NCBI GenBank assembly: GCA_016207665.1
Contig: JACQPG010000106.1
Location: forward strand, 1-37,952
Direction of reading: 5' to 3'
Origin: Elusimicrobiota bacterium
Lineage (GTDB): Bacteria > Elusimicrobiota > Elusimicrobia > UBA1565 > UBA9628
DNA length: 37,952 nt
The notes under the pieces: model-generated
Database searches by the model: none
Seen by the model: only the letters and a program-made list of their open reading frames with translations
What the model was told of the DNA's origin: nothing
Made by a program: the position numbers and the translations under genes
In this document: piece by piece, positions 11,950-37,952 of the stretch
Position numbering within the stretch: the first letter of the stretch is position 1
Layout: each line of letters opens with the position of its first letter

Positions 11950-13319
11950 CGCCGGGTCACGACGCGGGTCACTGTGGTTCTGTTGCCGGACGAGTCGGAG
12001 GCGGCGACCGAGATATTGTTGAGACCCGGCTGTAGGGGCACGTCCGCGAGAAAATTGCCGCTCTCATCGACCCGAGCCGGCTTGCCGTTGACGGTCACGT
12101 TGAGCGTGATGTCCCGGATGAGGCCTGATACGCGATACTCCTCGGTGCTGACCGCCTCGTCGGCCGAAGGCTTGAACACCACCAAGGCGGTCTTGAGATC
12201 GAGGCCCCCCGGCTTGCGGCCCAGTCCTACGGAAAAGAGCTTAGGCGAGGAGAACGCCGCTTCCGTGCCCAGCAGGTCGATGAGAGCGATACGCCACCAA
12301 TAGACGCCCTGGGGCAACCCTAGGGTATTGAGATTGATCTTTTCCTCGGCCTCGAATCTCTTGTCGAGCAATATCTTGTCGAAGGCCCGCGAGCGAGAGG
12401 CCTGGACCCGGTAACCCGAGATGGGAACGCCGATGCTCAGATTGGCCACTTCTCCGCTCAGCTCGTCGGCGTCCAAGGCCGCGTTGATCTCGTCGGCCCC
12501 GGCTCCCACGGGAAGCTGTCCCAGCACGGCCCGATTGCGGATCCGCGCCTGGCCGCTGACCTGGGCCCCGGTAAAGGCCGCGGCTCGCGCCTCGAACTGC
12601 GGCAGGTCAGGGATGGAGAAGGGCACTCCGGGAGCCAGGCCCATCTTGACCTCGCTGGCCATGCCTGCCTTGACGTCCACGGTCTTTCCCTGGCCCTCGA
12701 CCGCCGCCACGCCCGTATAGACCTCGACCAAGGTGGTCAGATCAGGGCTCACCTTGGCCGAGTATTGCGTGTCATTGGTCCTGGGGGTGATGCGCGCCGA
12801 GGCGGTCACGACCCGAGACCGCCCCACGAAAAGGCCGCCGCTCTTGAGCTCGACGTCGTAATCCTTTCTTAACGGCTTGATGATGGCCATGGAGTTGGGA
12901 TCGAGGCTTAAGAGCTCGGAGTTGAGGAATTTCACCTTGGCCTTGGAGCGATCCAGGGTGCGTAGCCCGTCGCCTTTGAACAGCTCCATGTCTTGGGCGG
13001 CATGGTTCCAAGCCGCGGTCTCCTTGCGCCGGAAATCGACCCGTCTTTGGACGAAGATCAGATGAGCGGCTCGCAGCTCCTCCTTAATCAGCTCAACGGG
13101 GACCCTGAGCGTCATTCCGGGCAGGGGAACCGTGGGGTCCGAGGAGGGCATCTTGTTGTGCTTGAGTATCTCATCCCACTTGGTGGGGTCCTTGAGATAG
13201 GTCTGCGCGATTCCCCAGAGCGAGTCGCCGGGCTTGACCTTCACGTTCTGCAACTTGATCTCGACGGCCCGGGACGATCCCGCCAGGATGATCGCCCACA
13301 ACCCGAGGCAGCGGATCAC
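11946..13319 (-). CDS. Exported LysM / FecR-like domain protein
   Basis: A 457-residue exported protein. Residues 1-18 form a signal peptide (CLGLWAIILAGSSRA); about 27-75 is a LysM peptidoglycan-binding repeat (VKPGDSLWGIAQTYLKD, then ILKHNKM, LPGMTLRVP). About 110-225 is FecR-like: KGDGLRTLDRSKAKVKFLNS and SARITPRTNDTQYSAKVSPDLTTLVEVYTG, as in cell-wall proteins of other diderms. The rest is beta-rich, with an extracellular Ig-like ending (GLIRDITLNVTVNGKPARVDESGNF is its core). GTG 13319 overlaps the histidine kinase stop as GTGA, so the kinase and this envelope protein are translationally coupled; it may be part of the signal the kinase reads or responds to. Confidence 0.85.
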   Translation of the reverse strand: MIRCLGLWAIILAGSSRAVEIKLQNVKVKPGDSLWGIAQTYLKDPTKWDEILKHNKMPSSDPTVPLPGMTLRVPVELIKEELRAAHLIFVQRRVDFRRKETAAWNHAAQDMELFKGDGLRTLDRSKAKVKFLNSELLSLDPNSMAIIKPLRKDYDVELKSGGLFVGRSRVVTASARITPRTNDTQYSAKVSPDLTTLVEVYTGVAAVEGQGKTVDVKAGMASEVKMGLAPGVPFSIPDLPQFEARAAAFTGAQVSGQARIRNRAVLGQLPVGAGADEINAALDADELSGEVANLSIGVPISGYRVQASRSRAFDKILLDKRFEAEEKINLNTLGLPQGVYWWRIALIDLLGTEAAFSSPKLFSVGLGRKPGGLDLKTALVVFKPSADEAVSTEEYRVSGLIRDITLNVTVNGKPARVDESGNFLADVPLQPGLNNISVAASDSSGNRTTVTRVVTRR

Positions 13320-16853: not shown

Positions 16854-19800
16854 TCATGCGACGCCGCAGGCCCAGCGACAAGGCTAGAAGACCGAGCGAG
16901 AACAAGGCCAGGGTCGCGATCCAGAGCCAGGGCCAGGAATGGACCGGCGCGGGATTTCCTGGAGAAGGCGGGATGGGATCATCCCGCTGGGGCGCAACGA
17001 TGTCGAGCCGCCGCGAGAGCCGAGACAGATAGCCGCTCCACCACGCTTTCCGCGCCGAAAGCTCGGCGAGCCGCCCCTCGAGTTCGCTTAGCTCGCGCTC
17101 TATGGCCTCCTGGCGACCCACGCGCCAATCGACCGGATGCAGCGCGTCAAGGCGCTCGCCAGCGCCTTGACGTCCCTGCTCCCGCTGCTTGAGCTGGTCC
17201 TCGAAGTCGGACCTGGCGCCGGCTCTGTCTTTCTCAAGCCCCTCGGACTTGCGCTCGAGATCCTTGCGCTCGGCCTCCAGAACGCCGGGATGGGACTCGA
17301 AAGCCTTCCTTTGCCGGGCGTATTGTTCGGCGCCCAGGCGCAGGAGCAGCCGCCTCTCCACACGCTCGACCGCCAGATTGCCAGGGCTCTCCGCGATGGA
17401 CACGGGAACCCCGTCATCGGAACGGATCAGGCCGCCGATGAGGGGATCGCCCAGGGCCTCTCCCACCGGGTCCCGTTCCTTGTCGCTCTTGCCCCGCTCA
17501 TTGGGCCGCAAAACCCGCACGGTGGAATCCTCGAAAAAGCCGCTGCGGCCCCGCCTCTGCTCGACGATGGAATCCTCGAGCCCGCCGCTGAAATAGGACA
17601 ATATCCTCTGCTGGGCGCTGCGCATGTCCTCGCGGCCGTATCTGAGCAGCCGCTCGATCCCCTTGACGCCGAAGTGGACCTTGCTTCCCTTGTCTGGATC
17701 GCGCATGCGCTTGTCGGCCATGGACTCGTCCGGCTTGAGCCGCGAGTCGATACGGACGCTGCCTGGGAACTGGCTGGGATCATAATAGCGCTCCACCTTG
17801 TCCGGCAGCAGGTTCAGCACATCCACGGCTCCCCCGAGCCTGCGGAAAAAGCCGTGATCGGGGGTGCTTCCCCCTTCGGTCTTGTACATGTAAAGCCGGC
17901 CCAAATAGTGGTGTTGGTTGGGATCCCGGCCGGTGAGCAGCTCGACCGGGATGCCCAAGGCCCCCCGCGGCAGCTCGAGCAGCAGATTGCCCCAATTCCA
18001 CGGCATGTAGCCCCAATGCTTGGTCCGCCACAGCTTCGACTTGGCCGAGTCCGCGCGCTCCGCCAGATAATGGCGGCTCAACCAAACCCGCCCGCCGTCC
18101 TTATCCTCGTAGTGGCTGAGACGGAACACCGGCCGGATGCTCAGGCCGTCCGCGCTCCGCACCGGCCTGTCATCCGGACCGAGGGTGAGGGACTTGAGCG
18201 TCCAATCCGCGGAGACACGCTCCAGCAGAGCCTCATCCTGATAAAAATGCTTGATGCGATCATCGTCCAGGACCGCGCCCAGCAGAGGGCCTTTGACCGT
18301 GAGCACGGGCGGCCCGCCTGAGCCCAGGCTCTGCTCCAAAGGCGCCCGGCCGTAGGCTGCGGGAGCTCGAGCGGAGATTATGCGGCCGTCCCGGTCCAAG
18401 CCGAGCTCGAGCTCCTCGCTGCGATACAGGGTCCACGACTTGGCCTGCTTGGCGATGAGCCGGGCCTCCTCCAAATCCTTCTCCGCCGCTCGCAGCCGCG
18501 CCGAAGAGTCCTTGCGCCTCTTGGCCGACTCTTCATGAGCCTTGGCGTAAGGCTCCAGCTTTTTCTGGGCCTCCTTGACCCTGGGGTGAGACACCACGCG
18601 CTCTTCCAGCTCGAGTTTGAAGGCGGGCTCCTTGGGATCATGGCCCTGCTCGATCATCATCTCATGAAGGACCTGGCGCACCTCGGACGTGGCCGCCTGA
18701 TACTCGTCGGATCGCTCTTGCGAGATCGCCTTATGGCGCTCGAAATCCGCTTGGGCGTCTCGCTCGGCGGCTTGGGCGCTCAACAGCGCCTCCTGCGCCC
18801 TCTTGAGATCGCGCTCCGCATGGCCGAATCCCTTCACCGCCGCCTGGAAATCATCCCGGCTCAGATAGAGCTCCACGAAGCGGCCATCCCCGTCCCTGGC
18901 AAATCCATACCCGCCCAGCTTGAGCCCGATAAGGCCTTGGCGCAGTTGGATCGATCCTTGTCTCTCGGCGCGCTCCGCCATCGCCCGCGCGCCCTGGGCC
19001 GACATCTCGACCCTATGGAAGTCGCCCGCGGCGACCGAGGCCTTCAAGCTCTCGAGGGTCGGAAAACGATCGCGCGGCAGGGCCTCATCCTTGGCATAGA
19101 TGAATATCTGATAGCGGGACGGGATCATCGCCAGAGCCGCCATGGGATGGAGGGCCCGATGCAGGCGTCCGGGCAGCTGGCGGTCAGAAGCCTCGAAGAA
19201 AAGCACTCGACCGCGGGAGTGCAGTCCCCGAGCCCCGAACAAGTCCTCGGCCGAATATCCCTGCGGGCCCGACTCGCCGGGAGAGTCCACCGCGAAATCC
19301 CATCGAGCCATGCGCCCGTGGACGCCTAATCGATCGCGATTGCGCTCATGCGACCGGCTGGCTCCCTCATGCCGGGCGTGCGCGACATCGACTCCCCCGA
19401 TCAGTTCGAGTTCATCCGCCCCTTCTTTAAGGAATATCCGCTTTTGAGAGCTGCCGTCCGGAAGCTTGATCTCGCGCTCCTCGATCACTCCGGCATTCCT
19501 GCGCGACTCCAGCTCGCTGGCCGTCAACCAGCCCTCCATGGTCCAAAGCCTTCGCCCGTCCCGGCTTACCCGGGTGGCCGCATAGAGCGGGCTGATCTGC
19601 TCGCCGCGGCCTTGCCAGCGCTGGCGCGCGGTCCTGAGCCTATCGAGGGCCAAGGCCGTCTCGTCGATCTCCGCGGGAGAGGCGCCTTCCCAGCGGACAG
19701 CCGCGAGCCTCGACTCGCCGAGCATCACCAGGGCGTTGAGGGCCGCCAAGCCGCGCCCCGAGCGGATTTCATCGATGGAATCGGACAAGGAGCCGCGTAT

Positions 19801-22800
19801 GTCGTAAAGGGCGTCCAAGGTCCACAAGGCCTCCTTGCCTCGGGCCTCAGTGTGCTGGAGCGTCTTGGCCAGCTCGGCGTTGAAGGCGAAACGCGCCTTT
19901 AAATAAAGATCCAACTTGATGTCCTTGAGGAAGAACCTCTTGGGATCTTGATCGAGATCCAAGAGATAGCTATCGAGCAGCTCCTGCCGGGCCTCCTCGG
20001 CCCTCCAGGACAGGATCTCGAGCCTCGCGAAGGCTCCCGTAAGCTCGTGGGGCTGGGAAGCCGCTTCCCAGTAGACCCGGCGCAGGCCTTGGCCCGCCCG
20101 CAGCAAGGCCTCCTTGTGCGCCGTCCCGCTCTCGGCCTGGACGCGCAGGTCCGAGCGCAGGAATTCCAGCAGCTCGATGAAGCGCGGATTGGCCGGATCG
20201 GAGGGTCCGATCGCCGCCAGAAGCTCGCTCAGCATCGATTTGAGCCGGTCGCGCTTGCCCACGAGATCGTTGCGCGATAGCCATTCGATGCGCTCAAACG
20301 GATCGAAATCCTTATGGAGAACGCCCTGTGCATCCAAAGCCGCCACCCTGACCAGATACGAATACCTCCCGATCTTGCCCACGAGCTCGCGCGGGACGCC
20401 GAGCCGCAAAAGCAGGCCCTCGTGTCGAGCCTCGAAATCGCCGTCGAGGAGCCGCTCGGCCCAATAGCTCAAAAGCTCGTCCCTTGGGTCGCGGCGCAAC
20501 GACGGCAAGGGCTCGACCGGCGCGGGAGCCGGCCTGAGCCTTCCCTTGCCGTCGGGGTCGATAGCCTCCAGCTCGGCGACCAGGCTCACGTGATCCGATT
20601 GCGTCCGAGCCACCTGCTCCGAGAGCTCGAACCAGGCCTGCACCAGGCGCTCGCGGGCGAGCTCCGCGGCGATCCTGTCGCCTTCCCCCCGCGCCGCTCC
20701 CATCCGAGCGCGGTACTCGTCCTCGGCAACGGACACAGCCCGCCTCCTGGCCTCGATGAGCCGGACTCCGTCCTCGACCCGGGCCAACAGCGAGAATATC
20801 CTCAGGGCCAGCTCCTGCAGGGCGCCGCTTTCTTGGAGCTGCTTGCGCATCATGTCCGAGATCACGTTCTCCAATCCTCGCTCGATGGCGCGCGGATCGG
20901 GGGCCTCCAGGAACCCTCCTGATATGATCCGGCCGTCCCGGAATATCCCGGCCGCGCCGACTGGGGTGACCCCCTTGTAGCTCATCTGCTCGATCAAAAG
21001 ACCGGCCTGTATCTGATGGATCAGGTCCTCCTCGCGCGAGACGACCTTGGGCCAAGATCCGTTGAACAGGGTGTCGCGGATCTGCTCGATGGGGGCGCCG
21101 CGCAAGCCCTTGAGCACCCGCTCGGCTTGCGCCGAGGGATCGCGCGAGCCGGCCGGCTCCTCCGGAACCAAGGCCATGAGGGTCTCCAGCCCGGTGCCTG
21201 GATCGAGCCCCATGATGGCCACGATCCTTCCCTTTTGCTCGAACAGCCTCTGCCTCTTTTGGTTGATGAACTCTATAAGGCCCCGGCTTGAGCCGTCTGG
21301 ATCGGCCAGTTTCCTCTCGGCCCAGCGCAGGTTCCAGACATTCTCCCTGAAATCCTCCGCCAACAATCGAGCCTTGGCCGCCTCGCCGAGCATGGAGTCG
21401 CGATGCTTGCGATCCGCGGCCTCCGTGCGCAGCCGGCCCAAGGCGATCAGGGCGTCCTCAGGCGTTCCGGGGGCCTTGAGCCTGAACTCGAGCCAGCTCT
21501 CGCCGTAATGCTCGTTGATCTTCTGGCGACCCAGAGTCTGCCCGGCGTAGTAATAGCGCGCGAAGGCGCGGCCTTGATGAGCGTAAAAACCGGGCTCCTC
21601 CGTGGCAGGGGTTCCGGAGGGCGTCCGCGCGGAAATCTGTTGGGCTCTTTGAGCCAGGCGATTCTTGAGCTCCTCGAAAGTCGAGGGCAAGGGCGTCGGA
21701 TCAAGAGAGCGGCTCGACGGCTCGCCTAAAAAGGCCAGCGTGGACCTCAGCCCGCCGATGCGATGGCGCAACTCGATCTTTCTCAGCTCGCTGGCCGCGT
21801 CCGCCCGTCCTTCCAGGCGCGCGAGCTCTCCCAGCGCCAAGTTCAAATGAAGTCTCGCCTGTTCGGCCTGCGCCGTGGCGGCCCTGTCGAAATCGTCGCG
21901 CGCCTTCTCCTCGCTCAGGGTGCGCAGCCTGGCCGCGGCCACGGAGTCCTTTTTGCTCGCCTCCTCCTCGGAAAGGGCCTTGACCAGGCGGCCCAGAGAG
22001 CGCCCGAAGATCGAAAAGGGCTCGGTGGCCAATTGCTCGACCTTCAGATTCTTGGTCACGATCTGCTCGTGCGCCTGGGCCAATCGGACTCGAGCCTCCA
22101 GTATCCGGCGCTCGGCCTGCCTGGGCTTTTTGGCCTCCAATATGCTCTCGACGGCCGCCAGAGCCTGCTCGGCGCTGATGTCGATCTCCAAGGGAGACTC
22201 GGCCGTCCTTCCCAGCAGATGATTGAGAGTGGCCACGGCCGAACGGCCGGTCAAGAGCACCTGTTCCCTCTTGGCCTTGGCCTCGTCGAGTTGCCGGCCC
22301 GAAAGCTGCGGAATGAGCCGGTCGTATTGGCGCAAAGCCTCGAGCGCCGCGTGATAGGCCGCCACGTTCTGGAAGAGATTGAGGGCCAAGACCGACTCGA
22401 GCCGGGTCTTGAGCTGGCCGTAATACTCGGATTGGTCCTTGTCCTGGCTCAACTGCAGCTCGCGCAGCTCCGAGGGCTTGAACTCCAGGCCGAATATGGG
22501 GGTGACCGGTATGCCGGTGATGCCCATGCTGGGGAGCCAGCCCACTCCATGCGAGTTGAAGCCCGCGCCGACATGCAGGTCGAGGAACACCTTCTGGATG
22601 CGATGATCGTTGAAACGACCCATCCATTGGGCCGCCTCCTGCTTGAGGGCGACTTCCTTGAGGCTGTGGGAGCGCTGGGCCACGATCTTGAACCCTTGCT
22701 GTATCGAGCTCAAGCGCAGCTCTTGGCCGTCGGAATCCATGGGCTTGACGAATTGCGACTCGAGCTCGACGGCAGCCTCGGCCAGAGCGGCCTTGCCCTT

Positions 22801-25800
22801 GGCCTCGAACACGGAGCTCGCGTACCACTCCCAGTCCTCGTAAGCCCTTTGCAGCTCGCTCCAGCTCAAGAGCCCGTTGCGGAAGGCCCTGATGGCCAGC
22901 GAAAGACTCTCGGCCGCGGGAGCCACCCCCGGCTCTAGGCTCTCGCCGCTGGCCTTCCACACCCGGGCCTTCTCCACCTCGAGCTCGGCCCGCAGGCGCT
23001 GGTCCAGGTAGGCCTGCGCCAACTCCTCGTAAACGGCCCGGCTTTCCCTTTGCAAAGCCATGTCCCTGTGGCCCTTGCGGCCCGGGTCATAGATCGGCAG
23101 GCGCAGGGTGACCCCGGCGGTGAAGGCCTGATTGGCCAACATGTCCTGGAGCTGTATGCCTACGCCCACGCTCAAACGCTCGACCCAGGGGATGAAATCC
23201 ACGACGTTGAAGGGGTTGGGCCCCAGTCTTTGCGTCAGGGCTTGCTCATCGAGAGCGCGCAAGGCCGCAATGAGCCGCTCGGGCTGGGCCAGGGTCTCGC
23301 GCATGGATTCCAGGAGCAGGGACATGTCCGAGGCGTTGAGCCGTGACAAGGCCGCGGGAAGCGGCGCGTTGGGATCTCGCCCGGTAAAAAGATTGTAGGA
23401 GAGCACGCTCTGGCGCAGCCTCTTCTCGGCCTCGATGAGCTCCACCTCGGCCTGGCTGCGGAAACTCCGCGAGGGCGCGCTCTCGAGCTTGGAGCGGGCC
23501 ATGCGCAGCTCCCATTGGCCCTTGGCCAGCTCCAGGATCAGATCCTGCCACTGACGCGCGATCTCGACCTTGCGTTCCTTGAGCCTCAGCCCCTCGCGCA
23601 CGAGAGCCGGAATCTTCGCGTCGATCAAGGCCTTTTGAGTCTTGGTCAGGGTCAGCGAGGTCTGGGTCCCGGCCATGGGCCCGCCCCCGATGACCCGGTC
23701 GGTCTGGTCTCCGGAAACCGGGGAGCTGACGAACCCGATCATGCCTTGCACCCGGGTGTTATCCATGACGGCGCCGCCCTTGCGCAGCTCCTGTATCTCG
23801 CGGGCCAGCTCCCCGATCTCCTGCACCATGAGCTTGCCCGCCATGTCCCTTTCCCAGATCTTCTGCAGCTCCGCGACCAAGGCGGGATCGGAGGCCGCCG
23901 GCTTGAAGGCTTGGGCCTCCCGCTCGCGGAACGGCTTGAGCACGTCTCCGCCCGCGATATTCTCCCGGGCGCGCTCGCTTGCGTTCTTGAATATCTCGGA
24001 GAGCACGAAGGAGCTGTTGGTCAGGAACTGGAGCCTGTTGTTCATGCCCGGATGGGGCGAGCCGTAACCCACCGAGACGCTCGCGTGATCGCCCAGCTTC
24101 TTGCCCGCCTCGAAGAAAAAGGTCCCGGTATCGGATTTGCCGCCGTAGAACAGCTTGCCTTCCCCGCTCAAGAAGATGCCGCTTCCGGGAAGGTTGACGG
24201 TGAGCTTGTCCGAGAGGGTGTTGTACTCTTGCCCGACCTCGGCGGTCATCTTGTTTTGCCCCGTCAACCAAGGCTTGCCGTCGGTCTTGAGGCTGAAGCC
24301 GTTGAGCACGGTGGCGCCCAAGGCGTTCTGGGCGATGTCGTCCGTGCCGTCGACGCGCGAGAAGAACAGGTCGAGGGTGAAGGCATTGGCATCGGCCTCG
24401 GGGTTGAAGAGCTTGGCGACGTTGAAACGGGGACCCAGTTGGCTGCGGCTGTAGCGCTTGTCGTCGGCCTCGACCCGGATGTCCAGGCTCTTGGCCAGGT
24501 CGGGATCCCAGCCGGTGAAGTCCAGCTTGAAGGGCTGCAAGAACTTGCGCGGGTCCCTAGCCAGCATCTCCTGGTGCTCGGCCGTCAGTTCCACGTACTC
24601 GGTGAACTTGAACGAGCCCTTGAGGCTGCCTCCCAGGTAGTAGGGCTTGTTCCAGGTATCATTGAGCGCGAAATCGCCGAACCCCGCCGCGGCGATATAG
24701 GCGCGGTTGCCGAGTATCAAGGCCGCGAAATCCTCGAACACCATCACCCGCCCTTCGGAGACGTTGGCCACGAATCCCAGCTCCGCGGGAGCGTCGAACG
24801 CGGAGCGCCGGAAGGTGATGTCGAGATAATTGACCATGCGCTTGCCTTGCAGCGACTCGACGCTGACCCTGATGCCTTTGTCGCCATAGGGGGCGTTCTC
24901 CTTGTTGTTCGGGCTGCCGAATTGATAGCCGGTGACGCTGATGTTGTTGCCCCAGAGGCTGGCGATATTGCCGAAAGTCACGGCGTTGCCGGTCTCGAGC
25001 CCGTGCGGCACTGAGAAGCGGCTCTGGTAGACCAGGTAGAAGCCGTCGATGTCGTCGGAAAACTCCATCATCTGGGTCTCCGGCAGCAAGCTGGTCAATC
25101 CTTGGGGGTTCTCGAGCAGGCTCTGCTTGAGCCCGGCCAGATTCTGCGCTCCCTTGGCCTGGAACATGCCGAGCAGCATCTCGACGAAATTGGGAAACGC
25201 CGACTTGCGCACGATGAGGGTCTGCGGCTGTTCCGGGTCCTCCCCCATCAACCATAAACCGCGATTCATGCGCAGCCGCTCGACGCGGGAAACGAGCTGG
25301 GGAGACAAGGTCTCCTGGAGCTCCGGGCGCGCCAGCATCTCCCGCAATTCCGCCTGGCGATCATCGAGCTCGATCATGCGCGCCTTGAGCAGGGTCTCCG
25401 AGCGCTTGGCTTGGTCGTTGAGCTCATGCCATTTGACGTTGGCTTCCAGCACCGCGCGGGTCTTTTCCTGGATCGCGGACACGTCCTTCATCACGCGAGC
25501 CAGCGCGCTCTCATGGGGATCGTTGAGCTGGGCCAGGTATCTCTTGACCAGCTCCTTCTTGCTCTGCAGGTCGTCATAGGTCTTCTTGAGCGAGTCCCGC
25601 ATCTTCTCGACGGCCTCCACCTCGGCGTCGTTGACGGTCTGCCCGCCCTCATGTATGTCCTTGAGACCCTCGTAGTATTTCTTGATGTCGTCCAAGGTGT
25701 CGTGCTTCTCGAGATCCCAGCCGGTCTTCTGGTCGAAGAAGAGCGTCCCTTCGACCAGGAAGGCCTTGAGCGCGCCCAGATTGGCGATCGCCCGCTCATA

Positions 25801-28800: not shown

Positions 28801-30570
28801 CTGGCCCGCGCTTCCCGGGGCCAAGAGACTCATCACTCGATCGGAGATGTTGAACCCGGTCAAATCCTGCGCGTGATAGAGCAGCAAGTTGCCCCAGGTG
28901 ATGGCCCCGCCGAAGGGAATGGGGCCAGTCCCCGGCCCGCCCTCGATGGCCGCGGCTATGCCATGGAAAAGTCCGAAGCTGCGGCCCGTCGCCGCCTTCC
29001 AGGCTGGATCGACGACAGCGTCGAGCTCCTCGGTATACGAGAGAATGCCCGCGATCTCGCCGCCCACCGTGATCATCATGCCGGCGGATTTGAAGGTCTG
29101 CAGCCAAAACGCTCGGCTCGAAAATTGTTCGCCCCAGTTCCGCGGCGAATGGCTGGTCAGGGCGAGCAGGAAGGCCAGCATATAGGTATTGAGCATCTGG
29201 CCCAGCACCAAGTCCTTGAGCAGAGCGGAAACGGCCGCTCCCACGGCCGGAGCCAGAACCGGGCCGATCAACGGCACCGAGCCGATCAGCCACGGCAGCC
29301 AGCCCGCCAGATAGACCAAGGCCGGGCCGAGCAGAGGGAGGCTCGCCAGAGAGATCTGGAATAAATGGATGCCCCCGATGATGAGCAGAGGCGAGCCCCC
29401 TAGGGCGCCCAACACTCCCATCGAGACCGCGCCCAGCACGGCCATGACCAGGCGGCGCTTGAGGAATTGCAGCAGGGGCTCGGAGACTTGAAGATGCAGC
29501 AAGACCACGCTCCGGCCCCAGCCGGAATAAAGCCGGGAATCCCAGGCCTTGTCGCCGGCCTGTCCCACCCTCTGCACCACGGACTCGAAAATCCTCTTGG
29601 GCGCCTCGGCGTCGCTGGCGCTCAAAAAGTCCTCCGCGCCATGCAGGCTGTAATGGCTGATGGCCCGGCGGAAATAGCCGATGAAGAACATGTCGAAGAG
29701 ATGGAACGGGAAGCGGGCGAGCAATCCTGTCAAATGTTTGAGCGGAAGGCGCACGGCCCAGCCTAGGCCCGAGTCCCAGCGGGCGCCGTAGCCGCGCTCG
29801 GCTTGGCCGTGATGCTTGCGCTGGTCGAAACCGTCGCGGAACTTCTTGTTGAGTTTGTCGAGTTCGGTATAGAGCTTCCACCAAACGGCTGATCCGGAGC
29901 CCTCGCCGAAATTGCGGCCGGAGGCGATACGCAACACCTCGGCGCGAGCCTGCTCCACGCTTTGGCCGTCGGCCAGGAAAAAGCGCCTGGCGATATGATC
30001 GATGATCTCGGGCGCCGAGGCGCTGGAGCTCAATCTCTTCAGCGTCGGATCGCGCCGCGCTCCCGACAGCCATCGGAACCCCAAAAAACTCTCACGAACC
30101 CTGGGAGCATAGGACCGGGAACCGGGCGAGGCCGGGGCCAATTGCGAGGGGAGAGGCTCCGGAGGAGTGGGCGGGACTATCGCCGCGGGCGGCTCGTCCC
30201 CCGGCTTGAGCTGGTCGAAAAACGCGCCGCTTTCCCGGCGCGCCTGTTCCTCGCTCTTGTCCGATCCCAGGCCCGGCGTCACGGCCGAGCCGTCCTGCTC
30301 CGCGGGGCCCAACGGACCGCCGAATAGATCGCCTTGCTCGGGCTGGGGAAGCGCCGAGGAGGGAACGGCGGCCTGCCGGCCGAATGGGATCAGCTTGAGG
30401 GCGCGGTTGCCGAACGAACGCAAGGACAAGCGCGGCGGAGCCGACGGCCGCCCTGAATGGGGCCTGATAGAGCCGGCCACGGCCTGTAAAATAGCCGGAC
30501 CGGGCGCGCTGAGCCCCAGCTCCAAGACCAACAGGCAAGCCAGGGCCCTTTTCCAGAGGCCTCGAGGCAT
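16837..30570 (-). CDS. Giant envelope protein (4,577 residues) with TolC-like outer membrane factor modules
   Basis: One open frame of 13.7 kb. Approximate layout: signal peptide (1-33); Pro-rich linker (34-150); polytopic membrane block (275-510); long helical and coiled-coil region (620-1750) with a Pro/Gly linker near 1480; beta-rich block (1790-2180) with many alternating strands; TolC-like region (2270-3340); mixed region with a coiled coil (3910-4040) and a conserved-looking LLTGRDPNQHHYLGRLYMY segment near 4210; last coiled coil (4425-4475); C-terminal membrane helix and basic tail (WPWLWIATLALFSLG, then RRRMRP). TolC features are clearest at 2272-2310 (SLTLTKTQK) and 2462-2490 (GVTLRLPIYDPGRKG followed by long helices). 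Function is inferred as envelope transport or architecture. Start ATG 30570 has only a weak AGGG upstream. Confidence 0.85.
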   Translation of the reverse strand: MPRGLWKRALACLLVLELGLSAPGPAILQAVAGSIRPHSGRPSAPPRLSLRSFGNRALKLIPFGRQAAVPSSALPQPEQGDLFGGPLGPAEQDGSAVTPGLGSDKSEEQARRESGAFFDQLKPGDEPPAAIVPPTPPEPLPSQLAPASPGSRSYAPRVRESFLGFRWLSGARRDPTLKRLSSSASAPEIIDHIARRFFLADGQSVEQARAEVLRIASGRNFGEGSGSAVWWKLYTELDKLNKKFRDGFDQRKHHGQAERGYGARWDSGLGWAVRLPLKHLTGLLARFPFHLFDMFFIGYFRRAISHYSLHGAEDFLSASDAEAPKRIFESVVQRVGQAGDKAWDSRLYSGWGRSVVLLHLQVSEPLLQFLKRRLVMAVLGAVSMGVLGALGGSPLLIIGGIHLFQISLASLPLLGPALVYLAGWLPWLIGSVPLIGPVLAPAVGAAVSALLKDLVLGQMLNTYMLAFLLALTSHSPRNWGEQFSSRAFWLQTFKSAGMMITVGGEIAGILSYTEELDAVVDPAWKAATGRSFGLFHGIAAAIEGGPGTGPIPFGGAITWGNLLLYHAQDLTGFNISDRVMSLLAPGSAGQSAQERFSMAAQDLVDPGVYDFDKELHKKSAAEVEARVKELMGKTGQLGREVEQSRRHIEELDRQIRAGEARLAELKRISRPLAPEERAEQERLSRELSAARDQDAILGKLAQGYELAHPRGGDEPGLKELLQLQAGLEGRLPPRSEERSGYWEDISLRQAQFKALAEKASAILEDRPVDRPAGVSGVDDKTLKDLDKVLGEIERLKSDVASETHMLNAVRKLLAMQAAMRNQAARERRTGKERMDLQVNMSRLEAVMHLSYGLKQITEAQARIQEGLKLLEAKLKKIKNSEKRNEQGLKEAEEKLKRLAAWRKEVDEEIEDDKANKSDLLRFADEATRGVGAITGFRNEISALIGSIKAQDGSDPVRKYEERIRMLPTVAKLRTDGNPNDKDAFSLKDFEADLTEARDNLSKAREGLSRMGEVDREHAGILIALIPGPETRLHNPTQGQIMSMLAERKTHWEGRLKEFQDSLDSINRRLDRSNTRKIPDDFGDPQYESLIVRREDNERILNESRSRSLANTAQIDALAAQINSTLGVSLPPLSGLTLEQLQDAIEGYGDKLRAIKIPDSDKTEFTTAQVNLLNIARLLPQTGYEVIRWSESEETIEAIDEALRDILPPAKERLTAVVRMIKDVIADVDADVAYMNGPPDPQALINRKTTLLRDKIIPSLEGAADLIENTLIPFQKRSIDQVAKANSDYFRLYDAKKTLYTETVKLFDKTLPWSLSSHGGSEGDVAASRSSISFWKQRLQRNLDGYTDDQGRKHKGINEGLVEVSQRKDPNFMGEEELYGERQPFSVPRKIQKYTQERIERAAQFNQQAVDINKILAQIESLSGKFRLPRLPEGIGPDAAGKDKLQRLVDDEFFEKLRTQLTDIGDEARAKAGTGGATLPPSSGGPSTGEQPPIDVNPWAKIGLLAKDAGARIVDSSVTPTARGPAALAVARFLYSDAVIAASEKALKDQIPVAESFLNKGKKALEDAIANTDKDLAYIESNGSSETPQQVYERAIANLGALKAFLVEGTLFFDQKTGWDLEKHDTLDDIKKYYEGLKDIHEGGQTVNDAEVEAVEKMRDSLKKTYDDLQSKKELVKRYLAQLNDPHESALARVMKDVSAIQEKTRAVLEANVKWHELNDQAKRSETLLKARMIELDDRQAELREMLARPELQETLSPQLVSRVERLRMNRGLWLMGEDPEQPQTLIVRKSAFPNFVEMLLGMFQAKGAQNLAGLKQSLLENPQGLTSLLPETQMMEFSDDIDGFYLVYQSRFSVPHGLETGNAVTFGNIASLWGNNISVTGYQFGSPNNKENAPYGDKGIRVSVESLQGKRMVNYLDITFRRSAFDAPAELGFVANVSEGRVMVFEDFAALILGNRAYIAAAGFGDFALNDTWNKPYYLGGSLKGSFKFTEYVELTAEHQEMLARDPRKFLQPFKLDFTGWDPDLAKSLDIRVEADDKRYSRSQLGPRFNVAKLFNPEADANAFTLDLFFSRVDGTDDIAQNALGATVLNGFSLKTDGKPWLTGQNKMTAEVGQEYNTLSDKLTVNLPGSGIFLSGEGKLFYGGKSDTGTFFFEAGKKLGDHASVSVGYGSPHPGMNNRLQFLTNSSFVLSEIFKNASERARENIAGGDVLKPFREREAQAFKPAASDPALVAELQKIWERDMAGKLMVQEIGELAREIQELRKGGAVMDNTRVQGMIGFVSSPVSGDQTDRVIGGGPMAGTQTSLTLTKTQKALIDAKIPALVREGLRLKERKVEIARQWQDLILELAKGQWELRMARSKLESAPSRSFRSQAEVELIEAEKRLRQSVLSYNLFTGRDPNAPLPAALSRLNASDMSLLLESMRETLAQPERLIAALRALDEQALTQRLGPNPFNVVDFIPWVERLSVGVGIQLQDMLANQAFTAGVTLRLPIYDPGRKGHRDMALQRESRAVYEELAQAYLDQRLRAELEVEKARVWKASGESLEPGVAPAAESLSLAIRAFRNGLLSWSELQRAYEDWEWYASSVFEAKGKAALAEAAVELESQFVKPMDSDGQELRLSSIQQGFKIVAQRSHSLKEVALKQEAAQWMGRFNDHRIQKVFLDLHVGAGFNSHGVGWLPSMGITGIPVTPIFGLEFKPSELRELQLSQDKDQSEYYGQLKTRLESVLALNLFQNVAAYHAALEALRQYDRLIPQLSGRQLDEAKAKREQVLLTGRSAVATLNHLLGRTAESPLEIDISAEQALAAVESILEAKKPRQAERRILEARVRLAQAHEQIVTKNLKVEQLATEPFSIFGRSLGRLVKALSEEEASKKDSVAAARLRTLSEEKARDDFDRAATAQAEQARLHLNLALGELARLEGRADAASELRKIELRHRIGGLRSTLAFLGEPSSRSLDPTPLPSTFEELKNRLAQRAQQISARTPSGTPATEEPGFYAHQGRAFARYYYAGQTLGRQKINEHYGESWLEFRLKAPGTPEDALIALGRLRTEAADRKHRDSMLGEAAKARLLAEDFRENVWNLRWAERKLADPDGSSRGLIEFINQKRQRLFEQKGRIVAIMGLDPGTGLETLMALVPEEPAGSRDPSAQAERVLKGLRGAPIEQIRDTLFNGSWPKVVSREEDLIHQIQAGLLIEQMSYKGVTPVGAAGIFRDGRIISGGFLEAPDPRAIERGLENVISDMMRKQLQESGALQELALRIFSLLARVEDGVRLIEARRRAVSVAEDEYRARMGAARGEGDRIAAELARERLVQAWFELSEQVARTQSDHVSLVAELEAIDPDGKGRLRPAPAPVEPLPSLRRDPRDELLSYWAERLLDGDFEARHEGLLLRLGVPRELVGKIGRYSYLVRVAALDAQGVLHKDFDPFERIEWLSRNDLVGKRDRLKSMLSELLAAIGPSDPANPRFIELLEFLRSDLRVQAESGTAHKEALLRAGQGLRRVYWEAASQPHELTGAFARLEILSWRAEEARQELLDSYLLDLDQDPKRFFLKDIKLDLYLKARFAFNAELAKTLQHTEARGKEALWTLDALYDIRGSLSDSIDEIRSGRGLAALNALVMLGESRLAAVRWEGASPAEIDETALALDRLRTARQRWQGRGEQISPLYAATRVSRDGRRLWTMEGWLTASELESRRNAGVIEEREIKLPDGSSQKRIFLKEGADELELIGGVDVAHARHEGASRSHERNRDRLGVHGRMARWDFAVDSPGESGPQGYSAEDLFGARGLHSRGRVLFFEASDRQLPGRLHRALHPMAALAMIPSRYQIFIYAKDEALPRDRFPTLESLKASVAAGDFHRVEMSAQGARAMAERAERQGSIQLRQGLIGLKLGGYGFARDGDGRFVELYLSRDDFQAAVKGFGHAERDLKRAQEALLSAQAAERDAQADFERHKAISQERSDEYQAATSEVRQVLHEMMIEQGHDPKEPAFKLELEERVVSHPRVKEAQKKLEPYAKAHEESAKRRKDSSARLRAAEKDLEEARLIAKQAKSWTLYRSEELELGLDRDGRIISARAPAAYGRAPLEQSLGSGGPPVLTVKGPLLGAVLDDDRIKHFYQDEALLERVSADWTLKSLTLGPDDRPVRSADGLSIRPVFRLSHYEDKDGGRVWLSRHYLAERADSAKSKLWRTKHWGYMPWNWGNLLLELPRGALGIPVELLTGRDPNQHHYLGRLYMYKTEGGSTPDHGFFRRLGGAVDVLNLLPDKVERYYDPSQFPGSVRIDSRLKPDESMADKRMRDPDKGSKVHFGVKGIERLLRYGREDMRSAQQRILSYFSGGLEDSIVEQRRGRSGFFEDSTVRVLRPNERGKSDKERDPVGEALGDPLIGGLIRSDDGVPVSIAESPGNLAVERVERRLLLRLGAEQYARQRKAFESHPGVLEAERKDLERKSEGLEKDRAGARSDFEDQLKQREQGRQGAGERLDALHPVDWRVGRQEAIERELSELEGRLAELSARKAWWSGYLSRLSRRLDIVAPQRDDPIPPSPGNPAPVHSWPWLWIATLALFSLGLLALSLGLRRRMRPIST

Positions 30571-30706: not shown

Positions 30707-31588
30707 TTACTTGAGTTTTTTGACGGGCATCGGGCGGGAATCAGGGGCCTCGAATCGGCGCAGACATTGGCTGATGGCGCCTGGACTGCGATTGAACAGC
30801 CGGGCCAGCTCGCTGACGCCCAAGCCGGCATCCTTCCAGACACGATGTATCGCCTGCCGGCGCAAGGCGGCTATTTCACGCCACTGGAGAGGACCCACAA
30901 GACGAGAGAGCTCGATGCCCTGGGCCGCGGCAAGCTCCCTGAGCAGCCTTTGGGCCTGGATCAGCCTTTCCTGAGGATTGCCGGGCGGCGCGCTCTGTGT
31001 CCCCGGGGCCGACGGCGGCAGGCCCAGCTCCTGCCCGGCTTTCATCTTGTCCTTCAGGAATTGCAGATAACGAACGGATTGCTTGATGCGTATCTTGGCG
31101 AAACGAGACAACACCGGCTCGGTATCGACCAGGGTCTCTCCGGCCTGGCCCTCGAAATGCGCGGCGCAGCTCGACCAAGGATAGCGCCAGGGCTTTTCAC
31201 GATAACCGGCCTTGAGCGGTTGAAGGTGTATATAACGGCTGGCCTCGGCCAGCCCCTCCTCCGGCTCGAGCAGCCTCGACTGGAAGCGCCCTTGGAAAAG
31301 ATGGCCCGCGACCCCATGACGATGATTGAAATACTTGGTATAGGCGGTGCTCAAGGACTGCATGAATTGGGACAGATTGGGCTTTTCGGTCTTGAGCAAG
31401 AGGTGAATGGCAGGGTCGAGAAGGCAATAGGCGTATATCCTGAGCTCGAAGCGCTCCTTGCGATTGCGCAACAAGGCCAGGAAATGCCTGCGATCCTCGT
31501 TGGCGCGGAACAAGTCCTGGCGATTATTGCCGGCCAGCCTGACATAATAACAGGCGCCGGCGATTTGCGCGCGTAGAGGGCGTCCCAC
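30707..31588 (-). CDS. REP-associated/IS200-like Y1 transposase, with HTH C-terminus and degenerate HUH motif
   Basis: A 293-residue Y1_Tnp (IS200-like) protein of the RAYT type. It opens with MGRPLRAQIAGACYYVRLAGNNRQ and contains NHRHGVAGHLFQGRF and SRYIHLQPLKAG, all diagnostic; the likely catalytic tyrosine is Y119. The usual DNHYHLLL metal-binding motif reads DPAIHLLL, so the first histidine of HUH (expected at residue 60) is Ala and only H62 remains. The C-terminal 80 residues carry an HTH (WKDAGLGVSELARLFNRSPGAISQCLRRF, about 255-285), like the DnaA-type ends of related transposases. Start is GTG 31588. It may be inactive or act in trans on repeats elsewhere. Confidence 0.9.
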   Translation of the reverse strand: MGRPLRAQIAGACYYVRLAGNNRQDLFRANEDRRHFLALLRNRKERFELRIYAYCLLDPAIHLLLKTEKPNLSQFMQSLSTAYTKYFNHRHGVAGHLFQGRFQSRLLEPEEGLAEASRYIHLQPLKAGYREKPWRYPWSSCAAHFEGQAGETLVDTEPVLSRFAKIRIKQSVRYLQFLKDKMKAGQELGLPPSAPGTQSAPPGNPQERLIQAQRLLRELAAAQGIELSRLVGPLQWREIAALRRQAIHRVWKDAGLGVSELARLFNRSPGAISQCLRRFEAPDSRPMPVKKLK

Positions 31589-32995: not shown

Positions 32996-35900
32996 CTAGG
33001 GCAGTATTCCCGAGGCCTTGATCGCATCCTCCTCGGCCACGCGACGCATCTCCGCGGTCAGGACCTGGATCACCTTGGGATCGGACATGATTTCCTTCAT
33101 CACGACCTCATTGGCGCGCGCCTCTCCCAATCGATCTCGGCCTACGAGATCGTGCAGCTTCTTGCGGGTCAGATAATCGCGATAGAATCTCTTGGCGTCG
33201 ATGAGTTCCGGCTCCTGGAGCCGCCGCAAGATCGTGGCCTCGTCCAGGTTCTCTCCCGGCTTGAGATGCGGCCTGATGGCCTCCTCAAAATTCTTCCAGC
33301 TTGCCTTGTAGCCCTCGTCGGCTGATTGCCGCACTCTATGTCGCATCTGCGTCCAGTAGGCCTTCTGACCGAGAATCTCGGCCTTCTCATCGAGCAGGTA
33401 GAAACGCGTCTTCGCGCTTGAGGGGATGCGGCCTCGATCGATGCGACCCATGAGCTGCAGCAGGCTCACGTCCGATAGTTTTTGCGAATTGGTGATATAC
33501 ATGGAAATGATCGCGCCTTTATAAACCTCCGGGCCATCCTCCTTGCCGCCGACCTTGGCGGTCAGGGGAGGCTCGAGGCCGCGCACCATTTGGCCTACGA
33601 TCAAGACAAAGTCGATTTCTCCGCGCTCGGCAGCCTTCATATTGCGCATCAGCTCTACCTCGAACATATAGCGCTCGCGTTCGAAGTAGTTGGAACCCGG
33701 CATGGTGAGTATGGCCACGCGCTCTCGGCGCACGCCGCTTTCAGCCATGGTCTCGAGCGCCGGCTCGAGCTCCGGCTTGGAGCTGAGCCACAAGAAACCG
33801 GGGACCCTTCGCGCTTGGCGACCGGACCGCTCGCCGACCCTTTCCACCCGCTCCTTGAGCGCCCGCCAGTGCGCGATAGACCATTGAATCTGCACCCGGG
33901 TCGAATCCGCGCCAGCGCCATCGAGCAGCACATGAGGCTGCTTCATGGCCTTGCCGGGATTGGTGCCCTCGCCCAGTATGCGATAGCCCATCTCCTGGCG
34001 GAAGAAGGGCCTCATCGAGTCAGGCAGGGTGCCGGAGGCGGCGATGAGAAGGGCGTCCGCGTCGCGCGCCGCCTCATTGAGCTTGCGCATGTCCGTGATG
34101 GCCATGTGCTCGAAGTCGAGGGTCAAGGGCTTGCGCTCCCTAAGCTCTATGGGGGTCCTGTTGAAGGTGTCGAGATTGTCGAGCGGCAGGTCGTTGACAT
34201 AGCTGATGATCGAGCGCCGCGGGTCGGGATCCGGCTCATAGGTGGAATGGAGCCGCGCGCCCTCGGAGGCGGACTCATAGGCGCCCTCGAGTATCTTGCG
34301 GATCCAGTTCTCGAGCTTGCCGTAGCGGGCCTCGACCACGCCCAGCTTGAAAGCGCTTCCCAGGGCGTTGCGATACTCCTTGAGCATCTGGGCGTAGAGC
34401 TGATCCCGCGTCATGCCGTATTGCCGGGCCTTTTCCTCGGAAATCTCGGAGAAGACCTCTCCAGACCTGATTTTTCCGTGAGCCTCATTAGCCTTCTCGA
34501 GCGTGCGCGCCACCAGGTTGTTGAAAGCCAGGCGGAAATTCGCATCGCTCTCCAGCATCGCCCTGAACTCGGCCTGGCTGAGGCTTTGGCCGCCATGCCT
34601 TTGGTGAAGGACAGTCCACGCCTCCTCCACCCCCTCGCGCAACGCCCGCTGGAACGGATCGACGTCCGGGAAGCTGAGCTTGCCGTTGAACTGGCCCAAC
34701 GACAAGGGCGTGCCCAAGCCGACTATGTCGAACTCATCGGCGTAGACCTCATGGGTCTGGAAAGGGGTGAGGGTGCCGCTGGCTTGAGCCATGGTCTGGC
34801 GCAACATCAGGTCGGAATAGGTCATCACCTGGAATTTAGGCTGGCGTCCCCTGAAGAATGCCTTGTAATTGTCCAAGGTCTGCAGCACCAAGTCGCCGTT
34901 GGCCGTGGCGTAAATGGCGCCCTCCTTGCCCCGGACCTTCGCGTAAGCCTCCATCATGCCGATGAGCACGAATCCCAGAAGCGTCTTCCCGCCGCTGGTC
35001 TCGAGCAAGTCGTAAAGCCTGTTATAGGGTTGATATATCTCCTTGCCGTCCGCGCCCTTCTCGGGCAAGGCGCCAGCGACGGAGAGGAAGTTCTCGCGTA
35101 TTATCTCCAACTGCGCCTTCGGGCCGATCTTCCTTCCCTCAGCATCCGTCTTCTGCCGGCGAAACGCCTTGATCGAGTTTTGATTGACGTCGGAGAAGCG
35201 GTATTCCTCTGGTATCTCCCAGACGAGCTCGCCGCCGCGCTCCACGCGGACCCGGAAATGCAGGCCGAACACCCCCTGCTCCCACACATCGATCAGGAGC
35301 TCGATGGCCCGCTCCAGCCTTTGCATCTCCTGCGGCCCCCTGCTTGCCTGGCGGAAGAGGTCGATCTCCTTGACGAGGTTGATGTTGACGAATTGAAGGT
35401 CCGCATCGGACTCGATGGTGCGCCTGAGGCTCTCGAGCGACTTGCGATAAGTCGGATGCGAGCCGGCCTGCTCGATCAAGTCGTCGAGCTTGAGATTGGC
35501 GTAATGAATGAGGTCTCCCGCGCTCAGCCGCCCATCCAGGCTCTCCTTGAGCCCTTCCAAGGTCTTTCTCGGGGCGCCTCGGTCCTGCTCGATCAGGCGA
35601 TCGATCTCGGCCTTGGCGCGGGCTATCTTCTCTGAAACCGGCGAGGGCTCGGCAAGACGCTCGACTAGTCCATCCAAGGACCGAGCATCCTCGGCCGCGC
35701 TGCGCCGCCGGATGGCCTGGACCTGCTGGCGCGCCTCGCGCAAGTTCTCCTCGGGGGAGTTGCGCGCCTTGCGCTTAGCCATGCTTTCGATATGCTGGCG
35801 CACCCCGGTGATCATCATCTCGGAGGGAGTCTCGCTCGGGAGATCGATCAGGGCTTGCCAGAACCTGGTCTTGATCAGGGAGGAAAGGGCCGCGCCCAGG

Positions 35901-37952
35901 GGCAGGGGGGCGCTGTTGATCTCGGCCCACTGCGCCTCGGTTTTAAGTCGCTTGAGGGCCTTGCCCGAGATAAGATAGGTCTGCCCCCCCTCTTCCCAGT
36001 GAAGACTGTCTTCCGCGTTGATGATTTTCTCTCGCAGATCGGCCTTCTTGAGCAGCCTGTCGATCAAGGTTTCCCTCCAGGCCTTGACCGCCTCGGGGGT
36101 GACGAACACCTCGTCAGCGGCGAGAGCGGGCGGTTCGGGTCTTGGGGATGCTGAAGACCCTCCGAAAAGCTCGGCCTGGCGATCGTCCGCGGCGCGGCCC
36201 GGCCGGCGCGACGTCTCCCCTGCCGATTTTTTGCGCGGGGCTGGAGCATCGGCGATCTCCACGTCCAAGGACAGCCCGCCTTGCGCGCCATCGTCAGCCA
36301 GGGCGATAAGTTCCTTGAGCTTGCGCCGCCCGGAGATCGCGCTGGCATCCACGGTGGCTCCGACCATGATCTCCAAATCGCTCATGCCCCGGGCCCGCTC
36401 ACGGTTGGCCATCTCCCTGAGATCCTCCTGGCCCTGTATCTCGCCGACCTCGCCCTCGCCCTTGCGCAGCCAGCGCTTGAAGCGCTCGCCCCAACCGCGG
36501 CTGTACCATTTTTTCTTGAATTGGACGGGATCGCTGTTGGAGGCGGTTTCAAGCTTATGCAATTGCTTCTGCCGCGACAAGGTATAATAGGCCCGCTCCG
36601 TCTCCCGCGCCTGGGCCATCTCGGAGCGGCCGCTCATGGTATTGACCGGGATCAGCAGCCAGCTCACCTGACCCGCGCGCATCCAGGTGCTCACGCTTCC
36701 GGAGAGCCTTTGCAGGCGGCCGGTGATCCCATTCATATCTTGATACGGATCCACCAAACCCAACTCCTCCGCCTTGGCGCTGCCGTAATAATGGGCCAAG
36801 GCCGCGGCATCCATCATGCCCTCGCCCAGCACGAAATATTTGCCGGCCCCGTCGACGAAACCCGCGGTCCGCAAGCCGACCTTCGCCGCGGCGCGAGGCA
36901 CGGGAGCCAGCCTATTGGTCGCTTCCTCGGCCGCCTCGAACAAGCCCTTTTTCCCCGCCTCGGTGCGGCGCAGGCGCAACGAAGCGCGCGCGATCACATT
37001 CGCCAAGCCGCTGACGGGGCCCGCGCCTTGGGCCACATTGCGCAGCCCCCGGCCTAGCGCCGAGTTGCCGAAAGCGGTGGCCGGGAACGGGCTCATGAGG
37101 AACAATAGGCCCGCCTTGGGGCCGAACGAGGCTCCGCCTATGGCTGAATGCTTGAGGAATTCGCCGAAATCCTTGGTTCCGCTGGCATCCGGATTGACCC
37201 AGTAATGCACCGCGCCCATGCCCGTGGAGGCGACCGACATCACCACGGCCTGCCCCGCGTTGAAGCGCAGGGCGTTGAGGAGGTTCGTGGTGACGGCCTG
37301 CTTGGCTAGACCCTTAAGCGTGACGACATCACGCAGCTCCAAGGTATTGGTGAAGTTATTGTTCCAGGCCAGTCCCAGGCGCTTCGGGTAGCGGAAGGGA
37401 AACAGCGCTCCGGGCTTGAGCGCGCCGATAAGAGGCCGGCCCTGGAGCCAACGCACGGCGATCGGAATGCCCTTGCTCGCTCCCCGAATGGCCCAACCCA
37501 CCCCTACCGAGACCGCGCTCATGAAACCGATATCATAGATCGTGGTGCCCATCATGAAGCCCAGCATGTAGCGGTCGAGATAATTCATCTGGCTGGTGAG
37601 CACCCCCATAGCCTTGACCACGCGGGGGTCGGCGCTGTCGCGCGTGAGGCTCGATTCCAGGTCCAGCTTATGGAAACGGTATTCCTTGGGCTTGGAATCC
37701 AGGTACTTTTCCCACGCCTTGTCGGCCGACTCGGAGTCCAATTTGGCAAGCTTGTCATAGACCCCGCCCTCGCCCTCGTAGCGCTGCTCGGCCATGAGCT
37801 TGAGTATTTCCCTGCGTTTAGCGTGATCGCCCAGCTTGCGATAAGCCACGGGATAGATCTTCTCGATCGCCCTCTCGCCGGACCAATCCCGGCTGCCTTT
37901 CCAGTCGCTCCAAGACTCCATCCACTTGAAGCTGAAGAGATGGGTCCAGAAC
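32996..37952 (-). CDS. SecA-like ATPase fused to an N-terminal membrane region (5' end outside window)
   Basis: The frame is open to the right edge (first internal ATG at 37921), so 1,651 codons are visible and the N-terminus is missing. Numbering from that ATG: hydrophobic segments at about 95-300; helical linker to about 900; motor with SecA-type motifs. Walker A is ETSGGKTLL (about 973), matching SecA TGEGKT; QVMTYSDLMLRQ resembles the VTVNDYLARRD segment; YADEFDIVGLGTPL (about 1057) matches VDEVDSILIDEARTPL; AASGT (about 1290) is motif III; QLMGRIDRGR with TRFYLLD (about 1486) matches the QLRGRSGRQG and SRFYLS segments. All ATPase residues look intact. SecA-like export or related SF2 remodelling is the likely activity; partner and substrate are unknown. 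Confidence 0.75.
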   Translation of the reverse strand, partial: FWTHLFSFKWMESWSDWKGSRDWSGERAIEKIYPVAYRKLGDHAKRREILKLMAEQRYEGEGGVYDKLAKLDSESADKAWEKYLDSKPKEYRFHKLDLESSLTRDSADPRVVKAMGVLTSQMNYLDRYMLGFMMGTTIYDIGFMSAVSVGVGWAIRGASKGIPIAVRWLQGRPLIGALKPGALFPFRYPKRLGLAWNNNFTNTLELRDVVTLKGLAKQAVTTNLLNALRFNAGQAVVMSVASTGMGAVHYWVNPDASGTKDFGEFLKHSAIGGASFGPKAGLLFLMSPFPATAFGNSALGRGLRNVAQGAGPVSGLANVIARASLRLRRTEAGKKGLFEAAEEATNRLAPVPRAAAKVGLRTAGFVDGAGKYFVLGEGMMDAAALAHYYGSAKAEELGLVDPYQDMNGITGRLQRLSGSVSTWMRAGQVSWLLIPVNTMSGRSEMAQARETERAYYTLSRQKQLHKLETASNSDPVQFKKKWYSRGWGERFKRWLRKGEGEVGEIQGQEDLREMANRERARGMSDLEIMVGATVDASAISGRRKLKELIALADDGAQGGLSLDVEIADAPAPRKKSAGETSRRPGRAADDRQAELFGGSSASPRPEPPALAADEVFVTPEAVKAWRETLIDRLLKKADLREKIINAEDSLHWEEGGQTYLISGKALKRLKTEAQWAEINSAPLPLGAALSSLIKTRFWQALIDLPSETPSEMMITGVRQHIESMAKRKARNSPEENLREARQQVQAIRRRSAAEDARSLDGLVERLAEPSPVSEKIARAKAEIDRLIEQDRGAPRKTLEGLKESLDGRLSAGDLIHYANLKLDDLIEQAGSHPTYRKSLESLRRTIESDADLQFVNINLVKEIDLFRQASRGPQEMQRLERAIELLIDVWEQGVFGLHFRVRVERGGELVWEIPEEYRFSDVNQNSIKAFRRQKTDAEGRKIGPKAQLEIIRENFLSVAGALPEKGADGKEIYQPYNRLYDLLETSGGKTLLGFVLIGMMEAYAKVRGKEGAIYATANGDLVLQTLDNYKAFFRGRQPKFQVMTYSDLMLRQTMAQASGTLTPFQTHEVYADEFDIVGLGTPLSLGQFNGKLSFPDVDPFQRALREGVEEAWTVLHQRHGGQSLSQAEFRAMLESDANFRLAFNNLVARTLEKANEAHGKIRSGEVFSEISEEKARQYGMTRDQLYAQMLKEYRNALGSAFKLGVVEARYGKLENWIRKILEGAYESASEGARLHSTYEPDPDPRRSIISYVNDLPLDNLDTFNRTPIELRERKPLTLDFEHMAITDMRKLNEAARDADALLIAASGTLPDSMRPFFRQEMGYRILGEGTNPGKAMKQPHVLLDGAGADSTRVQIQWSIAHWRALKERVERVGERSGRQARRVPGFLWLSSKPELEPALETMAESGVRRERVAILTMPGSNYFERERYMFEVELMRNMKAAERGEIDFVLIVGQMVRGLEPPLTAKVGGKEDGPEVYKGAIISMYITNSQKLSDVSLLQLMGRIDRGRIPSSAKTRFYLLDEKAEILGQKAYWTQMRHRVRQSADEGYKASWKNFEEAIRPHLKPGENLDEATILRRLQEPELIDAKRFYRDYLTRKKLHDLVGRDRLGEARANEVVMKEIMSDPKVIQVLTAEMRRVAEEDAIKASGILP

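Follow-up and report, generated by a model that had tools for sequence, protein, structure and literature searches.

Three tandem TolC-like modules in a giant Elusimicrobiota protein: a candidate single-chain outer-membrane channel

The window, a stretch of 37,952 nucleotides from an Elusimicrobiota bacterium which represents one entire contig of a draft genome, holds two giant genes and a transposase-like gene between them (Table 1). Elusimicrobiota are known for huge, poorly characterised proteins (PMC11573180). The first of the two giants contains a TolC-like region at residues 2240-3345 (20536-23853, minus strand) which is made up of six units of ~165-200 residues, in agreement with the spacing of about 165-205 residues given in a preliminary description of this DNA. 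Further downstream (11946-15487, minus strand), a sensor kinase with HAMP, PAS and HisKA domains and a LysM/FecR-like protein are encoded, an arrangement conserved in about a dozen loci.

Table 1. Features of the giant gene and its neighbours, with the basis of each assignment.
Feature	Position	Strand	Basis and remarks
Giant open reading frame, 4577 aa	16837..30570	(-)	Uninterrupted; carries the TolC-like region; open in homologues of ~3300-5650 aa
Predicted signal peptide, residues 1-34	30469..30570	(-)	Hydrophobic N-terminus recurring in full-length homologues (hydropathy only)
Hydrophobic block, residues about 370-460, several possible membrane helices	29191..29463	(-)	Hydropathy; in most long homologues
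Porin-like beta region, residues 1818-2190	24001..25119	(-)	AlphaFold2 and Foldseek; directly upstream of the six units
Unit 1 (U1), residues 2240-2405	23356..23853	(-)	OMF N-half, protomer 1; two strands, two helices; tail N-half 8e-6 vs C-half 7e-3
Unit 2 (U2), residues 2405-2612	22735..23358	(-)	OMF C-half, protomer 1; C-half P = 4e-6 over 135 columns in register, N-half 7e-4
Unit 3 (U3), residues 2612-2790	22201..22737	(-)	OMF N-half, protomer 2; P = 1e-6 over 173 columns
Unit 4 (U4), residues 2785-2955	21706..22218	(-)	Presumed C-half, protomer 2, degenerate hairpin; topology only (one strand, two helices)
Unit 5 (U5), residues 2955-3140	21151..21708	(-)	OMF N-half, protomer 3; two strands, helices of 52 and 25 residues; tail N-half 3e-3, C-half 0.71
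Unit 6 (U6), residues 3140-3345	20536..21153	(-)	OMF C-half, protomer 3; P = 6.5e-5 to C-half; tail 9e-6 vs N-half 8e-4
C-terminal membrane anchor with RRR tail, residues 4549-4567	16870..16926	(-)	Kept in most long paralogues; absent in short form
Y1 transposase-like gene (Y1_Tnp, IS200-like)	30707..31588	(-)	Pfam Y1_Tnp above cut-off; between the two giants
P0002, second giant gene, SF2-type ATPase domain	32996..37921	(-)	Upstream; 5' end cut by contig end

Homologues of P0002 are found upstream of the TolC-like giant, on the same strand and in the same order, in at least ten genomes. They vary in length from 2356 to 2893 aa, with those of 2356-2599 aa matching Pfam ResIII above the cut-off, and the motifs of P0002 itself comprise a Walker A TSGGKT, DE-D and GRID-GR. 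Reading the motifs by eye had pointed to SecA, an identification that was not confirmed: the only Pfam match is to ResIII, and hhalign gives P = 0.03 for the comparison with local SecA and P = 0.001 for the set of other SF2/Uvr-type proteins; a search of P0002 against the PDB returned no relative. The homologues carry a signal peptide ahead of the ATPase domain and several have one predicted membrane helix, which would place the ATPase domain in the cytoplasm. The Y1_Tnp gene also has relatives just upstream of the TolC-like giant in roughly 20 homologous loci, most of them with 44-59% identity, and because its position is conserved it appears to be a domesticated gene and not a mobile one; a search for REP-like palindromes in its vicinity found none.

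The TolC-like giant belongs to a family of similarly large proteins. Residues 1850-3400 are present in 50 of the 77 relatives searched, mostly colinear and at full length with ~30-50% identity, and the open reading frames that hold them mostly measure 3300-5650 aa. Phylum-wide searches recovered the region in 39 of 295 genomes when alignment A1 was the query and in 48 of 341 with L060, a member of a distant family of the same class (L060/L236/L237) which aligns to the region over 979 columns (P = 8e-44) and shares about 16-21% identity with A1 members in that region. Members bearing the region belong to one order and a few near families of Elusimicrobiota; the homologues in GTDB genomes are mostly Elusimicrobiota MAGs, with some records labelled “bacterium” alone. 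A scan of genome contigs gave zero matches with the single window protein and 43 loci with the family alignment. In some genomes both a long and a short form of the paralogue occur, the shorter (L114, L115, L116, L119; ~3600-3900 aa) keeping the six-unit region and lacking the C-terminal membrane anchor. Most long homologues end in one membrane helix followed by an arginine-rich tail, as judged by hydropathy only.

Members of the OMF family (Pfam OEP, PF02321; TolC, OprM, CusC) are homotrimers with a 12-stranded barrel to which each subunit contributes four strands. Each OMF repeat combines a pair of transmembrane strands with one long helix (H3 or H7) and with shorter helices that come in pairs (PMC8277102). 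This is also what structure prediction returns for the giant protein: in an AlphaFold2 model of residues 2240-3370, calculated as a monomer from the 45 sequences of alignment A1 (pLDDT 73, pTM 0.70), the OMF half-repeat order of strand, strand, long helix and helix appears in six units, with unit 4 incomplete. The strands were placed at 2272-2281/2297-2309 in U1, 2465-2471/2483-2494 in U2, 2658-2672/2689-2697 in U3, 3000-3011/3017-3030 in U5 and 3202-3210/3214-3223 in U6, while U4 has one confident strand at 2844-2849, which brings the chain to 11 confident strands. In each unit they are followed by a long helix of 42-64 residues and then a second helix of 23-42 residues. Conservation in the family alignment peaks at the blocks 2250-2299, 2450-2499, 2650-2699, 2825-2874, 3000-3049 and 3200-3249, so that the strand segments which the preliminary description had put near residues 2290, 2476, 2680, 2853, 3018 and 3211 are matched both by predicted units and by conservation.

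In the window protein hmmscan found no OEP match, the sole OEP signal being one of 12 bits, below the cut-off, near residues 2469-2535. The colinear homologue L060, 18% identical in this region, scores above the OEP threshold in unit 3 (31.1 bits vs 22), and OEP recurs in 11 of 39 members, with each of the other Pfam families shown matching one. PDB sequence searches with the region found no relative, and the profile of the wider alignment A4 gave coiled-coil-like matches only. As a separate observation, one relative has an OEP match within an open frame of 1263 aa (G006:C35:110756-111340), possibly a further long OMF fusion.

Ordinary OMFs from the same genomes, split into N-half and C-half profiles, served for comparison with the units. 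Whole units matched these halves with P = 6e-4 for U1 (N), 4e-6 for U2 (C), 1e-6 for U3 (N) and 6.5e-5 for U6 (C), with U4 and U5 not significant and the control regions all at P > 0.05. In a second test, which used the unit tails in alignment A4, the matches were U1 to N (8e-6), U2 to C (8e-4), U3 to N (about 3e-8 to 4e-8), U5 to N (3e-3) and U6 to C (9e-6); the matched half beats the other half for every significant tail (U1, U2, U3, U5, U6), and the best of 42 control comparisons reached P = 0.0087. U4 has no significant match to OMF halves in either test. OMF homology is therefore present in five of the six units, in the order N-C-N-(U4, no match)-N-C, which is the pattern that three fused protomers predict. 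The consensus tails illustrate this, with YNaLTGRDP in U1, LNyLLGRPP in U3 and IAALLGLPP in U5 compared to LnaLLGrPa in the OMF N-half, and IRAYRNGLI in U2 compared to sRYrAGvas in the C-half; in the window protein, U2 contains GVTLRLPIYDPGRKG and the FRNG tip motif, and U3 terminates in NHLLGR.

The three tandem TolC-like modules read earlier from the sequence are thus well supported by predicted topology, by OMF homology that alternates between N- and C-half in five units of the six, by structural matches (see below), by the OEP match of L060 and by order-wide conservation. Unit 4 had been called the least convincing, which its single confident strand and missing profile match uphold. Units 5 and 6, both described there as weaker, are not so to the same degree: U5 has a short N-half tail match only, and U6 has clear homology to the OMF C-half. 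That the OMF relationship might be limited to the first protomer (U1+U2), with the remainder an unrelated helical protein, could be argued from the position of the sole OEP signal; it is contradicted by the unit and tail matches, in which U3 and U6 equal or nearly equal U2 in their similarity to OMF halves, by the L060 match above the OEP cut-off at U3 and by a topology repeated six times, and can be regarded as highly improbable. The outcome that the preliminary description would have taken as refutation, one OMF match and no repeat, is at odds with OMF homology in five units and with the sixfold topology.

An internal repeat was not detected when unit profiles were compared with each other, since no pair is clearly similar and the best reaches P = 2e-4 over 29 columns; at the level of profiles, the units resemble OMF halves and not detectably one another. 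This divergence bears on the question of how the modules would assemble. Structurally known OMFs function as trimers (PMC3017539), and it is conceivable that the modules are real and that a pore is formed from several chains or from proteolytically released subunits rather than by a single chain, all the more as the region has no solved relative by sequence. Yet the six units amount to exactly one TolC equivalent, and their strong divergence is more easily reconciled with one fixed asymmetric assembly than with equal subunits, which makes assembly from several chains rather unlikely.

Whether the hairpins look like strands of a barrel can be judged from the in/out alternation of their residues, which was scored in eight-residue sliding windows against a null drawn from the remainder of the region, as fixed AlphaFold2 boundaries were uninformative for U5. 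Alternation exceeds the 99% null level in U2, U3 and U5 and the 95% level in U1, and is not above null levels in U4 and U6, so that the hairpins of four units resemble strands of a barrel and those of the other two are questionable. A Foldseek search of the six-unit model against the PDB returned 26 matches at E <= 0.001, all 26 of them OMFs with probability 1.00. The global superposition on TolC is poor, with an rmsd of mostly 9-10 A and a TM-score by target length of about 0.35-0.55 (Foldseek), and with a single confident strand in unit 4 the strand count is odd, and an odd number would not close an antiparallel barrel. Of the earlier reading as a whole, the three tandem modules therefore stand, while the complete single-chain barrel is a candidate, with the U4 strand, the alternation of U4 and U6, and the TolC superposition speaking against it.

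An AlphaFold2 model of residues 1818-2616, which takes in the porin-like region directly upstream of the units, has a low overall confidence (pLDDT 61, pTM 0.38). In it, residues 2064-2186 form a run of eight strands, each 8-16 residues long and joined by short turns (pLDDT mostly 67-88), with the first half of the porin-like region mostly below 60, and Foldseek ranks OmpU, Omp32, OccAB3, BamA and PapC after the OMFs. The predicted porin-like barrel would be a second pore-type domain in the TolC-like chain. The giant protein also has further long helical regions besides the six units. Together with the inner-membrane anchors, such regions would suit a degenerate OMF-derived scaffold, a helical rod spanning the periplasm with residual hairpins and no outer-membrane barrel, as would the missing barrel-like alternation in U4 and U6 and the missing second confident strand in U4. 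However, conservation in the hairpin blocks ranks with the highest, alternation is retained in U1, U2, U3 and U5, and the porin-like region adjoins the units, so that a mere scaffold also appears improbable.

Taken together, a tandem OMF architecture of residues 2240-3345 is very probable, and the fused protomers U1+U2, U3+U4 and U5+U6 probably work as a single-chain, asymmetric TolC-type tunnel. Three OMF protomers would be joined head to tail in this channel, one chain supplying the six half-repeats that TolC draws from three subunits, and its strand pairs would make up a barrel in the outer membrane while its long helices would build a tube in the periplasm. The tunnel would be asymmetric because the units have diverged. 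This presumes that unit 4 arose from a C-half in a fused trimer, that the barrel closes in spite of its degenerate hairpin and that the monomer is the working form. From the hydropathy of the chain we infer a tether to the inner membrane through the hydrophobic block near the start of the same chain and, where the long form is present, through its C-terminal anchor, with the porin-like barrel carried beside the tunnel. The giant chain would then serve an export system as its conduit through periplasm and outer membrane, with the neighbouring giant SF2-type ATPase as its likely energy source. A two-giant secretion machine spanning the envelope, in which an inner-membrane-anchored SF2-type ATPase is coupled to a chain uniting anchor, periplasmic tube and complete TolC-type channel, is a tentative extension of this model. 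A point against the channel reading is that ordinary OMF genes are also encoded in the genome, so the giant protein is not needed as a general TolC; another is that no adaptor, ABC or RND partner was seen among the scanned genes of the window.

If true, a natural single-chain TolC-type duct would mean that each of the six half-repeats could evolve separately, and a single gene would then suffice for work on asymmetric opening and asymmetric docking. One of the giant uncharacterised proteins of Elusimicrobiota would thereby gain a function, and the finding suggests an export system, so far unrecognised, whose partner is an SF2-type ATPase. No earlier description of a single-chain TolC or OMF was found in the open-access papers searched, although one elsewhere is possible.

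OMFs are described as trimers (PMC3017539, PMC8277102), and the giant protein resembles them in its unit of two strands, long helix and further helix, in the N/C pairing of halves, in the N-half tail motif LnxLLGRxP and the C-half tip motif RYxxG, and in its Foldseek and profile matches. It differs in having three protomers in one chain along with inner-membrane anchors, in its strongly diverged units with a degenerate unit 4, and in an OEP score that, for the window protein, does not reach the Pfam cut-off. Like tripartite efflux and type 1 secretion systems, the proposed system would combine a TolC-type exit duct with an ATPase; unlike them, it has no adaptor, ABC, RND or MFS transporter gene among those genes of the window that were scanned with Pfam, the ATPase next to it is of the SF2 type, and inner-membrane anchoring appears to reside in the same chain. 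The closest precedent for several outer-membrane pore domains per chain is that of naturally fused outer-membrane porins with two or three OMPP domains (PMC4827864), but there porin-type barrels are fused, whereas in the giant protein the joined parts appear to be three subunits of a single oligomeric pore.
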